The translations under genes and the position numbers were made by a program. A model generated the notes under the pieces. The model made no database searches. It was not told the DNA's origin and saw only the letters and a list, made by a program, of their open reading frames with translations. A stretch of DNA of 64,000 nucleotides from Amylibacter sp. SFDW26 (GTDB lineage: Bacteria > Pseudomonadota > Alphaproteobacteria > Rhodobacterales > Rhodobacteraceae), in the NCBI RefSeq assembly GCF_009184395.1, contig NZ_WEIC01000002.1, forward strand, positions 372,001 through 436,000, read 5' to 3'. Shown in pieces: positions 40,268-43,975 of this stretch (position 1 is the first letter of the stretch; each line of letters opens with the position of its first letter).

Positions 40268-41200
40268 CTATGCTTCGCAAGCTAAACTGACATTTTCTGT
40301 GTTATTTATTTTCGTATAGGTGTGAAATTCACATAAAGTGTCCCCAGTCGGCATGGGTTCAAAGTTAACAATGACAGGATCACCGTTATGCGTTTTAATA
40401 TCTGCGTACCATGGTGTTCGGTCTTGTGTATTTTCAACATATTCTCTCAAATCCCCCCATGTGGGTGTTGGATGAAAGATACTCTGCATCAGGTTTGAAA
40501 AATCATGAGTTGTTTTACAGTCTCTTGCATTAATGACCTCTTCTTTAAACGCGTGGTTTTGAAATGTTGTTGCGCCAGTTCGATCAAAAACAATGATTCC
40601 GATTGATGTAGCATTCATCGCACTTTGTAATTTATGTATCTTGGATCTAAATCCCCGTTCCATAACCAGAGCATTGGTCACGTCTTCAAATAAAAACACA
40701 ACCGTTCCAGACGGGTGAGGGCGCCCAATCACACGTAAAGTGCGCCCATCTGGTAAATCCCAGTCTTCTCGAAAGTCATCTCGCATTGCACTACGTTCAA
40801 TTTGTCGAAATGTTTGTCGCCAAGATGTATAGTTTTTGGGTTCTGGCAACACTTGTGTATCACGCAGTCGATCCATGAATGACAGTAAGTTGGGTTGTTG
40901 AAGTAACCATTCTGGGCGCAAACCCAGATGCTGCGATAGGGCGGGGTTAAACAATGAAAGCTCATTATTTTTGTCAAAGACAGCAATCCCAACCATCAGC
41001 TGTGCAAAAGTAGCACTAAGCGTTTGGACAAATTTGCTACGTCCCCCATTACTTTGTGTAACAGTTTTTCGTGAAGCCCTTTGATCTGTTTTTTTAAAAT
41101 TATTTTCATTTTCCGGTTTAGGCAATTTGAATAACACAATGCTGATCAGCAGAAGGCTGGTCATAAAAACGCAGAACAGAGTTAAAATAGATAGAATCAC
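40268..41200 (-). CDS. Membrane-anchored PAS-domain protein without output domain
   Basis: A 310-aa protein with one N-terminal transmembrane helix (about residues 4-25), a basic linker, then two PAS-like domains (about 60-175 and 190-300). The first contains G-I-A-V-F-D-K-N-N-E and N-P-A-L-S-Q-H-L-G. The second contains G-I-I-V-F-D-R-T-G. No histidine kinase, GGDEF or other output domain follows. It lies 54 bp after regB on the same strand, so a role in signal input near the RegB system is possible but unproven. Confidence 0.8.
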   Translation of the reverse strand: MILSILTLFCVFMTSLLLISIVLFKLPKPENENNFKKTDQRASRKTVTQSNGGRSKFVQTLSATFAQLMVGIAVFDKNNELSLFNPALSQHLGLRPEWLLQQPNLLSFMDRLRDTQVLPEPKNYTSWRQTFRQIERSAMRDDFREDWDLPDGRTLRVIGRPHPSGTVVFLFEDVTNALVMERGFRSKIHKLQSAMNATSIGIIVFDRTGATTFQNHAFKEEVINARDCKTTHDFSNLMQSIFHPTPTWGDLREYVENTQDRTPWYADIKTHNGDPVIVNFEPMPTGDTLCEFHTYTKINNTENVSLACEA

Positions 41201-41254: not shown

Positions 41255-42673
41255 TTAAGAGCTTGTCTCGAATTGTTGATTCAATCCCAATGCGCCACGT
41301 ATATCCGCGGGATCCTTTTCCAGTCCGGCCCGCTCCCAGCGTACATTCACAAGGGCGCCTTTAATTTTTGCGCCAACGATGTGATGTTTTTCATTCGTAT
41401 CAGCAGAAGCATTTGCAAACGTAAGTTCAGCACCAGAACGTTCCAGCAAAGTTTTTGCGATAAATAAACCCAGCCCCATACCTTGATATTCGGAGAAATC
41501 TTGTGCGCGTTGGTTTTGACGGGATCGTTTGCTGATAAAAGGGTCGCCAATACGGTCCAACAGATCACTTGGATAGCCATTGCCATCATCTGCAACAATA
41601 ATACGAACAGATGCTTCATCCCAAGTAGCGTCGACCCATACATTAGCACGCGAAAAGTCTACTGCGTTTTGAACCAGATTACGAAGTCCGTGGATGATTT
41701 CTGGGTGGCGCGAAATAATGGGAGTGTCTTCTGCAAACATATCTTCATCTTTGCCATTGATTGTGAAATTGATTATTTTACCGCGGCCTTCATGGGGCTC
41801 TGCAGCCTCATGAATAATGGCTGTTAATGGTGCGTGTCTTAACAATAAATCATCTTTGCCGCTGCGCCCCATGTCGCGCAAAATTTGACTTAGGCGATCC
41901 GCCTGCTCCTTAATCAAGATTGCATCGTCATGCAGGTCGGCATCCTCTTTTAATTCTGATGCAAGTTCAGAGGAAACCAATTTAATTGTTGCAAGCGGTG
42001 TGCCCATTTCATGAGCGGCTGCAGCTACAACGCCACCCAAAGCTGTTAGCTTATACTCACGAGCAAGAGCCATTTGTGTAGCGGACAAAGCCTGTGACAT
42101 TGAAAACATTTCCACAGTGACACGTCGCGCATAACTGGCAAGGAAAAGAATACCGATGGTCAAAGCAAACCACATACCGCCCAAGAAAATATTCTGAACT
42201 TCTAAAATCTCACCAGTTTGCCGTGCTAATGGTGTGTATACGAAGGTCAGTAGTGTAATTGTGATCAATGCGGTTATGCTGATTACTAATGTTGCATTAA
42301 ATGTAAGTGCTGTTGCTGCAATTGTTACAGGCGCCAAAATCAACATAGAAAACGGATTATGCAGCCCGCCTGTTAAATACAGTAATAAAATTAGCTGCGC
42401 TAAATCGAACAGCAAAGACAGCATCGCTTCGCGCTCTGAAAGACGTTTATTCGCAGGCAGGATTAATGTGGCAGATATATTGAACAATACAGCCGCAGTG
42501 ATAACTATTAAACAAGCACGAAATGGAATTGCCAGCTCCAGATAATAAACAGCAGCCACAACAGCCCCTGTTTGCCCCGCAATAGCAAGCCAACGCAAAA
42601 TAACCAGTGTTCTCAATCTGATCCAATCGCTGCGGGCTTCTTTTGTAAAAAGATTTGTAGATGGCTGCGACAA
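41255..42673 (-). CDS. regB: RegB/PrrB-type redox sensor histidine kinase lacking the redox cysteine
   Basis: A 472-aa membrane kinase that controls photosynthesis, respiration, and carbon and nitrogen fixation genes through RegA in related species. It has six transmembrane helices with the quinone-binding heptapeptide G102-G-L-H-N-P-F108. The H-box is A-A-A-H221-E-M-G-T-P-L, and the ATP-binding N-A-V-D-F and G-M-G-L-G-L-F-I-A-K motifs are intact. In R. capsulatus RegB the phosphorylated His is 225 and the redox-active Cys is 265. The same 4-residue offset places Leu261 here (Q-A-D-R-L-S-Q-I-L-R). The only Cys in the protein is Cys54 in the membrane domain. The start is TTG; no other start exists in frame. 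Confidence 0.93.
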   Translation of the reverse strand: MSQPSTNLFTKEARSDWIRLRTLVILRWLAIAGQTGAVVAAVYYLELAIPFRACLIVITAAVLFNISATLILPANKRLSEREAMLSLLFDLAQLILLLYLTGGLHNPFSMLILAPVTIAATALTFNATLVISITALITITLLTFVYTPLARQTGEILEVQNIFLGGMWFALTIGILFLASYARRVTVEMFSMSQALSATQMALAREYKLTALGGVVAAAAHEMGTPLATIKLVSSELASELKEDADLHDDAILIKEQADRLSQILRDMGRSGKDDLLLRHAPLTAIIHEAAEPHEGRGKIINFTINGKDEDMFAEDTPIISRHPEIIHGLRNLVQNAVDFSRANVWVDATWDEASVRIIVADDGNGYPSDLLDRIGDPFISKRSRQNQRAQDFSEYQGMGLGLFIAKTLLERSGAELTFANASADTNEKHHIVGAKIKGALVNVRWERAGLEKDPADIRGALGLNQQFETSS

Positions 42674-42752
42674 TGAATGACTCTCTTGTGACTTGTCTTC
42701 TGTGTCATGAAGTTAGATGAATGAATACAACTAATCTAGAGTGGTTACTGTT

Positions 42753-43349
42753 ATGTCTAAGTCTTTAGCAATATTTGCATCAAGCGTAGCAACCTTGGGA
42801 ATCGCTGTTGGTGCGTATTTCGTATTATCCCCAACTGAAAATCAATGTGGCCCAACTGGTGTGATTGCAGGCAATGCCACGATTGGCGGCCCATTTGAGT
42901 TGGTGAACCATAAAGGTGTTACAGTTACCGAAAAGGATGTTATCAAAGACGTATCGCTTGTTTATTTCGGCTACACATATTGCCCAGATGTTTGCCCATT
43001 GGATGTGGCGCGTAATGCAGAAGCGGTTGATCTGGTCGCCGCAGATGGAATTAATGTAACGCCTGTATTCATCACAATTGATCCTGCACGTGATACACCA
43101 GAAGCTTTGTCAGATTATGTGGATGTTACACATGAAAAAATGATTGGGCTGACAGGTACAGACGAACAAATCGCAGCGGCATCCAAAGCGTATAAAACCT
43201 ATTACCGTAAAAACGGTGAAGGCGAAGATTACTTAATGGACCATTCGACATTCAGTTATTTGATGTCCCCAGACGGTTTTTTGGATTATATACGCCGCGA
43301 TATGACAGCTGAACAAGTTGCTGAAAAAGTCGGGTGTTTCGTTGGTTAA
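42753..43349 (+). CDS. senC: SCO/SenC family copper protein (PrrC-like)
   Basis: A 198-aa protein anchored by an N-terminal helix, with its domain in the periplasm. The copper site is C77-P-D-V-C81 plus His164 in D-H-S-T-F. SCO proteins deliver copper to the CuA or CuB centre of cytochrome oxidase; in this operon SenC/PrrC also links oxidase state to RegB. It is divergent from regB and followed by regA. The ATG at 42753 is preferred to a GTG at 42741. Confidence 0.95.
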   Translation: MSKSLAIFASSVATLGIAVGAYFVLSPTENQCGPTGVIAGNATIGGPFELVNHKGVTVTEKDVIKDVSLVYFGYTYCPDVCPLDVARNAEAVDLVAADGINVTPVFITIDPARDTPEALSDYVDVTHEKMIGLTGTDEQIAAASKAYKTYYRKNGEGEDYLMDHSTFSYLMSPDGFLDYIRRDMTAEQVAEKVGCFVG

Positions 43350-43420
43350 TTAGGTCAAATTGACCTCATGTAATCTTCCATTTAAAAGTGATCTTATGGA
43401 ATTATATAAAGTTGGTGGAA

Positions 43421-43975
43421 ATGTCAGAAGATGAACTTGGCGAGATTGGCCCAGATAACAGTCTTTTAATCTTAGATGATGATGAACCGTTTCGTCGTCG
43501 CTTGGCGCGCGCGATGGAAAAACGTGGTTTCAACCCAACACCATTAGACTCTGTTGCTGCAGGGCGTGCGTTTTGTACAGCAACACCGCCAGCCTATGCG
43601 GTTGTCGATTTACGTTTGTTAGATGGTAACGGTTTGGATGTGGTCGAAGTGTTACGTGCCCGCCGCCCAGAAGCCAAGATTATTGTCCTAACAGGATACG
43701 GTGCCATTGCGACTGCTGTTGCTGCTGTGAAAATCGGCGCAACGGATTATTTGGCGAAACCAGCGGATGCAAATGATGTGACAAACGCGCTGCTTGCAAC
43801 ACCAGGTGACAAACCTCCGCCCCCAGAAAATCCAATGTCTGCGGATCGTGTGCGCTGGGAACATATCCAGCGCGTATTTGAATTATGTGATCGCAATGTT
43901 TCAGAAACAGCACGTCGCTTGAACATGCATCGCCGCACATTGCAGCGGATTTTGGCAAAGCGTAGCCCACGTTAA
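43421..43975 (+). CDS. regA: RegA/PrrA response regulator
   Basis: A 184-aa regulator, the exact length of PrrA. The receiver domain has the acidic pocket D-D-D-E and phosphorylated Asp63 (V-V-D-L-R-L-L-D-G-N-G). A Pro-rich linker (P-P-P-P-E-N-P) leads to a Fis-type helix-turn-helix, N-V-S-E-T-A-R-R-L-N-M-H-R-R-T-L. The DNA-binding part is almost invariant in the family. The ATG at 43421 follows GGTGG closely. Its receiver looks fully competent, so the altered RegB still has a normal partner. Confidence 0.97.
   Translation: MSEDELGEIGPDNSLLILDDDEPFRRRLARAMEKRGFNPTPLDSVAAGRAFCTATPPAYAVVDLRLLDGNGLDVVEVLRARRPEAKIIVLTGYGAIATAVAAVKIGATDYLAKPADANDVTNALLATPGDKPPPPENPMSADRVRWEHIQRVFELCDRNVSETARRLNMHRRTLQRILAKRSPR

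Follow-up and report, generated by a model that had tools for sequence, protein, structure and literature searches.

Oxidation of Cys265 in the sensor histidine kinase RegB of R. capsulatus, to a sulfenate or a disulfide, is reported to inhibit the kinase (PMC9147068, PMC5359404). The residue is called conserved and is treated as half of the sensor in passages of PMC9147068, PMC8191878 and PMC6530869. C. crescentus SpdS is described as carrying it as C248 (PMC6530869), and a conserved cysteine is also ascribed to the RegB proteins of B. pseudomallei (PMC8191878) and A. ferrooxidans (PMC5506826). A regB gene with a leucine codon at this position is found in the 64,000-nucleotide stretch of DNA from Amylibacter sp. 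SFDW26 analysed here (contig NZ_WEIC01000002.1, positions 372,001–436,000; hereafter the window). This raises the questions of whether the gene encodes a genuine RegB, how widely the cysteine is missing, and what kind of sensor would be left without it. Searches of the open-access literature returned no paper linking Amylibacter with RegB, and none on a RegB that "lacks the conserved cysteine".

The regB locus of the window

The regB gene (41255–42673, minus strand) opens with a TTG start codon and encodes 472 residues. The protein scores above the cut-offs of two NCBIfam equivalog models, NF045988 (652.1 bits versus 570) and NF033792 (542.3 versus 350). It is the single strong RegB-like match in the genome, the runner-up reaching 35 bits. 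His221, the phospho-acceptor of the H-box (42011–42013, minus strand), is invariant in 175/175 rows outside the genus, and it is present in all 29 genus RegB rows together with N336, D362, G364, G366, G400 and G402. The membrane domain matches Pfam 6TM_PilS over residues 47–184 (29.2 bits versus 27). The quinone heptapeptide GGLHNPF is found at residues 102–108 (42350–42370, minus strand), and 29/29 genus rows have GGxxNPF there. An original prediction, made from the letters of the window, had described the quinone site and the kinase motifs as intact, and they are.

The same prediction placed a leucine 40 residues past the H-box histidine, in the column of the redox-active cysteine. Leu261 indeed lies exactly at His221 + 40, and its codon (41891–41893, minus strand) reads CTA. 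The equal spacing and the conserved column point to His221 and Leu261 as the counterparts of His225 and Cys265 of R. capsulatus. The only cysteine of the protein is Cys54 (42512–42514, minus strand) in the membrane domain, as had been predicted. This residue occurs in 23/29 genus and 80/119 family RegB rows, and is common in relatives that keep Cys261.

The genes of the locus are arranged in the order regB-senC-regA. senC (42741–43349, plus strand) matches the SCO1/SenC family PF02630 with 157 bits. The CxxxC motif of SenC is kept here and in the genus loci where senC was found, which bears out the earlier view that SenC is normal. The regA reading frame (43388–43975, plus strand) is open from a GTG and scores 312.9 bits versus 250 with NF033791; starting from the ATG at 43421, RegA has 184 residues and matches the published Cys156 numbering, so that this ATG is used for RegA positions below.

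The window protein has the equivalog profile, the quinone heptapeptide, the H-box, the kinase motifs and the adjoining senC and regA in common with RegB of R. capsulatus and its orthologues (PrrB, ActS, RegS, SpdS). It differs from them in the conserved redox cysteine, which they have. By these features, it is a true RegB orthologue without the redox cysteine at the usual column.

The cysteine column outside the genus

Cysteine was found at the column in 373/373 RegB-type rows outside the genus, down to about 28% identity. The rows, of which 360 are distinct over residues 200–289, represent 362 genomes or named records, of which 252 belong to the same family, 72 to the same class and 36 to the same phylum, and two are named records. 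Cysteine was invariably read in successive batches of loci (28/28, 30/30, 24/24 and 28/28), in divergent members of the family and class (60/60), in further family members (80/80 and 50/50), and in RegBs from outside the class Alphaproteobacteria (36/36). It is also kept by four of four further RegB-like proteins of the class. Some class genomes (L288–L291) have RegB-like proteins of a non-Alphaproteobacteria type, in several cases as a second copy; the four proteins of this type that were read keep both the cysteine and GGxxNPF.

A RegB was detected in 283 of 296 family genomes (E ≤ 1e-60), and the column was read in 211 of the 281 that lie outside the genus. The other 13 family genomes, including nearly complete ones such as G148 and G178, gave no RegB match at 1e-30 either, apparently through loss of the whole system or through gaps in the assemblies. 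At one locus (L185, G044:C1:1156300-1158300), the regB match is split over two frames of 242 and 508 residues, so that either a frameshift or a sequence error is suspected.

Over the 175 outside rows scored, only six columns never vary: column 261 and those of His221, Asn336, Pro226, Leu227 and Ile230. The prediction was offered with the proviso that the cysteine might be commonly absent from functional RegB proteins, which is not what the 373 outside rows show. It had also called for the column to be mapped on a tree. When column 261 was left out and a tree of 88 RegBs was built, a single change accounted for the cysteine and leucine states. On this tree the genus clade is weakly supported (SH-aLRT 54), with the leucine proteins in two neighbouring groups. 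The replacement of cysteine by leucine apparently occurred once. In the sample, every RegB read keeps the cysteine apart from those of one genus, all of whose members read lack it.

Leucine 261 within the genus

Among 33 genomes of the genus that were searched, 30 have a RegB and all 30 have leucine at the column. No RegB was found in the remaining three (G009, G016 and G021), which are 71–83% complete. Codons were read at 28 of 29 genus loci, where all six leucine codons are represented, and the identity between RegBs of the genus falls to 50%. That every leucine codon is used despite such divergence argues that the leucine is old and has been held, rather than being recent drift, and that it is the leucine itself that is maintained by selection. 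A sequencing error is excluded, since the 29 other genus RegBs also have leucine and all six codons are in use.

The cysteine does not appear to have been relocated within the protein. The cytoplasmic half contains no cysteine in 27 of 29 genus rows, one in a single row and three in another. Relocation was rejected on this ground, which also disposes of the possibility, raised with the prediction, of a conserved cysteine elsewhere in RegB.

Residue 261 in other histidine kinases

The position aligned with residue 261 is a leucine in the kinases of solved structure ZraS, CpxA and 9p6i. In ten distinct other kinases of the window's genome, aligned by eye, it is leucine (seven), isoleucine (two) or methionine (one), and never cysteine. 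An AlphaFold model of RegB computed from a four-row alignment has a mean pLDDT of 60; it predicts, with low confidence, a helix spanning residues 245–275. This helix and the hydrophobic spacing (261, 264/265, 268) tentatively place residue 261 in the second DHp helix, on the side turned towards the core.

The cysteine of RegB thus looks like a redox device placed in what is normally a hydrophobic core position. As other HisKA kinases have leucine, or isoleucine or methionine, there, the genus would have moved to a generic residue of the helix bundle. With such a residue in place, a kinase that works without a thiol switch is plausible.

RegA of the genus

The original prediction considered RegA to look normal. 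This was wrong, as RegA of the genus has seven specific substitutions, all within one stretch of the receiver domain (43472–43585, plus strand): L18, R25, T40, L42, F51, C52 and T55. All or almost all members of the genus carry these residues, which are missing or infrequent in the family; R25, however, is common elsewhere in the class (18/28 rows). Cys52 (43574–43576, plus strand), which is new in the genus, lies 11 residues before the column of the phospho-accepting Asp63. It is found in 28/28 genus RegAs and in 1/136 outside the genus (0/80 in the family, 0/28 in the class and 1/28 in a further family set). RegA was absent in the search from 7/87 family loci, 1/28 genus loci and 2/30 further loci. 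In relatives, the Cys52 column holds A, V, S, I or L, and G once. At one locus (L398, in G098), a RegA with Cys52 accompanies a RegB that keeps its cysteine.

Other features of RegA are unaltered. The columns of Asp63 and Cys156 (R. capsulatus numbering; 43886–43888, plus strand, in the window) hold D and C in 28/28 genus rows, and these columns and the C-terminal helix-turn-helix are shared with RegA/PrrA of R. capsulatus, from which the seven genus-specific receiver residues, Cys52 among them, set RegA of the genus apart. The AlphaFold model of the receiver, again from a four-row alignment, is of fair confidence, with blocks of 76–90 over residues 11–90, and its top Foldseek match is 3rqi, a RegA-like regulator. 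Cys52 lies in a predicted helix (residues 45–54), and its exposure is not evident from the model. From end to end, the window RegA (43388–43975) and that of another locus (L046:1687-2271) do not differ at any residue; the two corresponding RegBs are 88% identical.

Coincident change in RegB and RegA

By a single criterion, seven genus-diagnostic columns were counted in RegA, two in RegB (Leu261 and a weak one at 306) and one in SenC. The excess in RegA (7/195 columns, versus 3/674 in RegB and SenC together) has a Fisher p of 0.0017, for a test that was picked after the data had been seen.

The share of the total tree length that falls on the genus stem was calculated from a common tree, in which the genus is represented by 25 rows and the family by every second one of its 76. 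It is 0.0035 for the membrane half of RegB and 0.0041 for SenC, versus 0.0154 for the cytoplasmic half of RegB and 0.0367 for the RegA receiver. The two phosphorelay parts thus have a share 4–10 times larger than that of SenC or the quinone domain. When the columns were bootstrapped 20 times, neither of these two parts overlapped in range with the RegB membrane half or with SenC. When column 261 was removed, the range of the RegB cytoplasmic half (0.0087–0.0205) just touched that of SenC (0–0.0090) over 20 replicates. By this measure of sequence change, the two phosphorelay partners changed jointly, on the branch on which the cysteine was lost, and the quinone domain took no part. No contact is claimed between Leu261 and the changed residues of RegA, as the confidence of the RegB model is low (mean 60).

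The genus-wide fixation of the leucine, its identity with the generic HisKA residue and the faster change of the phosphorelay pair, as read from the alignments and trees, are points that go beyond the original prediction.

Genomic and ecological context

Several features of the genome were considered as possible causes or substitutes for the lost cysteine. Reaction-centre genes occur in 3/33 genus genomes and are absent from that of the window. Loss of phototrophy is insufficient as a cause, since the two genomes with both reaction-centre genes and RegB (G010 and G028) also have the leucine. A match to ccoN is found in 24/33 genus genomes including the window's, for which the loss of a low-oxygen oxidase was rejected. 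A PAS-fold protein (PAS_7) is encoded directly downstream of regB (window 40268–41200, minus strand). A homologue flanks regB at 79/86 family and 22/29 genus loci, so that this protein is a standard neighbour, and it was rejected as a new partner supplying a second input. Metagenome-assembled genomes of Amylibacter are described in a metagenome study as abundant in spring in estuaries and as being without phototrophy genes (PMC11837527).

Discussion

The explanation that best fits these observations, and that is considered probable, though with appreciable room for doubt, is that RegB of the genus is a thiol-blind, quinone-responsive kinase, in which the redox cysteine was replaced by leucine, apparently once, alongside a co-evolved RegA. 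Leu261 would sit in the core of the four-helix bundle and pack there like any ordinary residue. If it does, the kinase would be insensitive to oxidation at position 261 and could not be switched off there by a sulfenate or a disulfide. The quinone pool would set the balance of kinase and phosphatase activities through the unchanged membrane domain, a response that is assumed from the kept motif. The original prediction had proposed a kinase that senses the quinone pool alone, which is a reasonable reading as far as the sequence goes. The RegA receiver would have been retuned to the altered kinase, and any remaining oxygen or thiol input would act on RegA or elsewhere.

There is next to no chance that the leucine is an artefact, be it a sequencing error, a pseudogene or a wrong orthologue. 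The 30 genus genomes agree, regB is single copy in the window's genome, its frame is open with the RegB motifs intact, the gene order is kept and the equivalog cut-offs are passed. A paralogue or a misassembly was likewise rejected, given the sole strong match in the genome and the concordance of 30 genomes. It is also improbable that the replacement had little effect, the cysteine serving mainly for packing and the genus having drifted to another packing residue. Such a drift would agree with the leucine, isoleucine or methionine of other HisKA kinases, but a cysteine kept in 373/373 rows over a wide divergence is not simply an interchangeable packing residue. No leucine codon can be reached from TGY by fewer than two base changes, the changes in RegA fall on this stem too, and redox control has been assigned to this cysteine in R. 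capsulatus, according to PMC9147068 and PMC5359404.

A somewhat better, though still rather low, likelihood is given to the thiol switch having moved, RegB reading the quinone pool and RegA reading the oxygen or thiol state with Cys52 and Cys156. The distribution of Cys52 (28/28 in the genus, 1/136 outside) and its gain on the very stem where RegB lost its cysteine speak for such a transfer. So does the retention of Cys156, whose R. capsulatus counterpart is described as forming an oxygen- and copper-dependent disulfide (PMC9147068). RitR of streptococci, in the account given in PMC5965902, shows that a response regulator can become a thiol sensor through a cysteine switch, and bears on this possibility only. 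However, the RitR cysteine is in the linker and RitR has diverged from kinase control (PMC5965902), whereas RegA of the genus keeps its phospho-accepting aspartate and its kinase. In addition, Cys52 may merely reflect a repacking of the core, as A, V, S, I or L stands in its place in relatives and the neighbouring A42L and I51F changed as well. The predicted helix gives no sign that Cys52 is exposed, and the L398 proteins indicate that Cys52 can be accommodated while the switch in the kinase is retained. If the switch did move, two inputs that are combined in RegB elsewhere would be split over two proteins. With Cys156 kept, an oxygen or copper input on RegA is on offer in any case (PMC9147068).

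A comparison can be drawn with the R. capsulatus RegB variants whose cysteine was mutated in the laboratory, and which reportedly have no thiol at this position. The likeness lies in a RegB without the thiol. The window case differs in being natural and fixed in the genus, in having leucine instead of a test residue, and in the accompanying change of RegA. RegB of the genus may therefore be a natural version of the thiol-blind sensor, in marine bacteria. It would represent a natural knockout, fixed across a genus, of one of the two inputs of RegB, and would let quinone sensing alone be tested directly in a native system. The changes in RegA would provide a defined case of co-evolution between a kinase and its regulator, with named residues.
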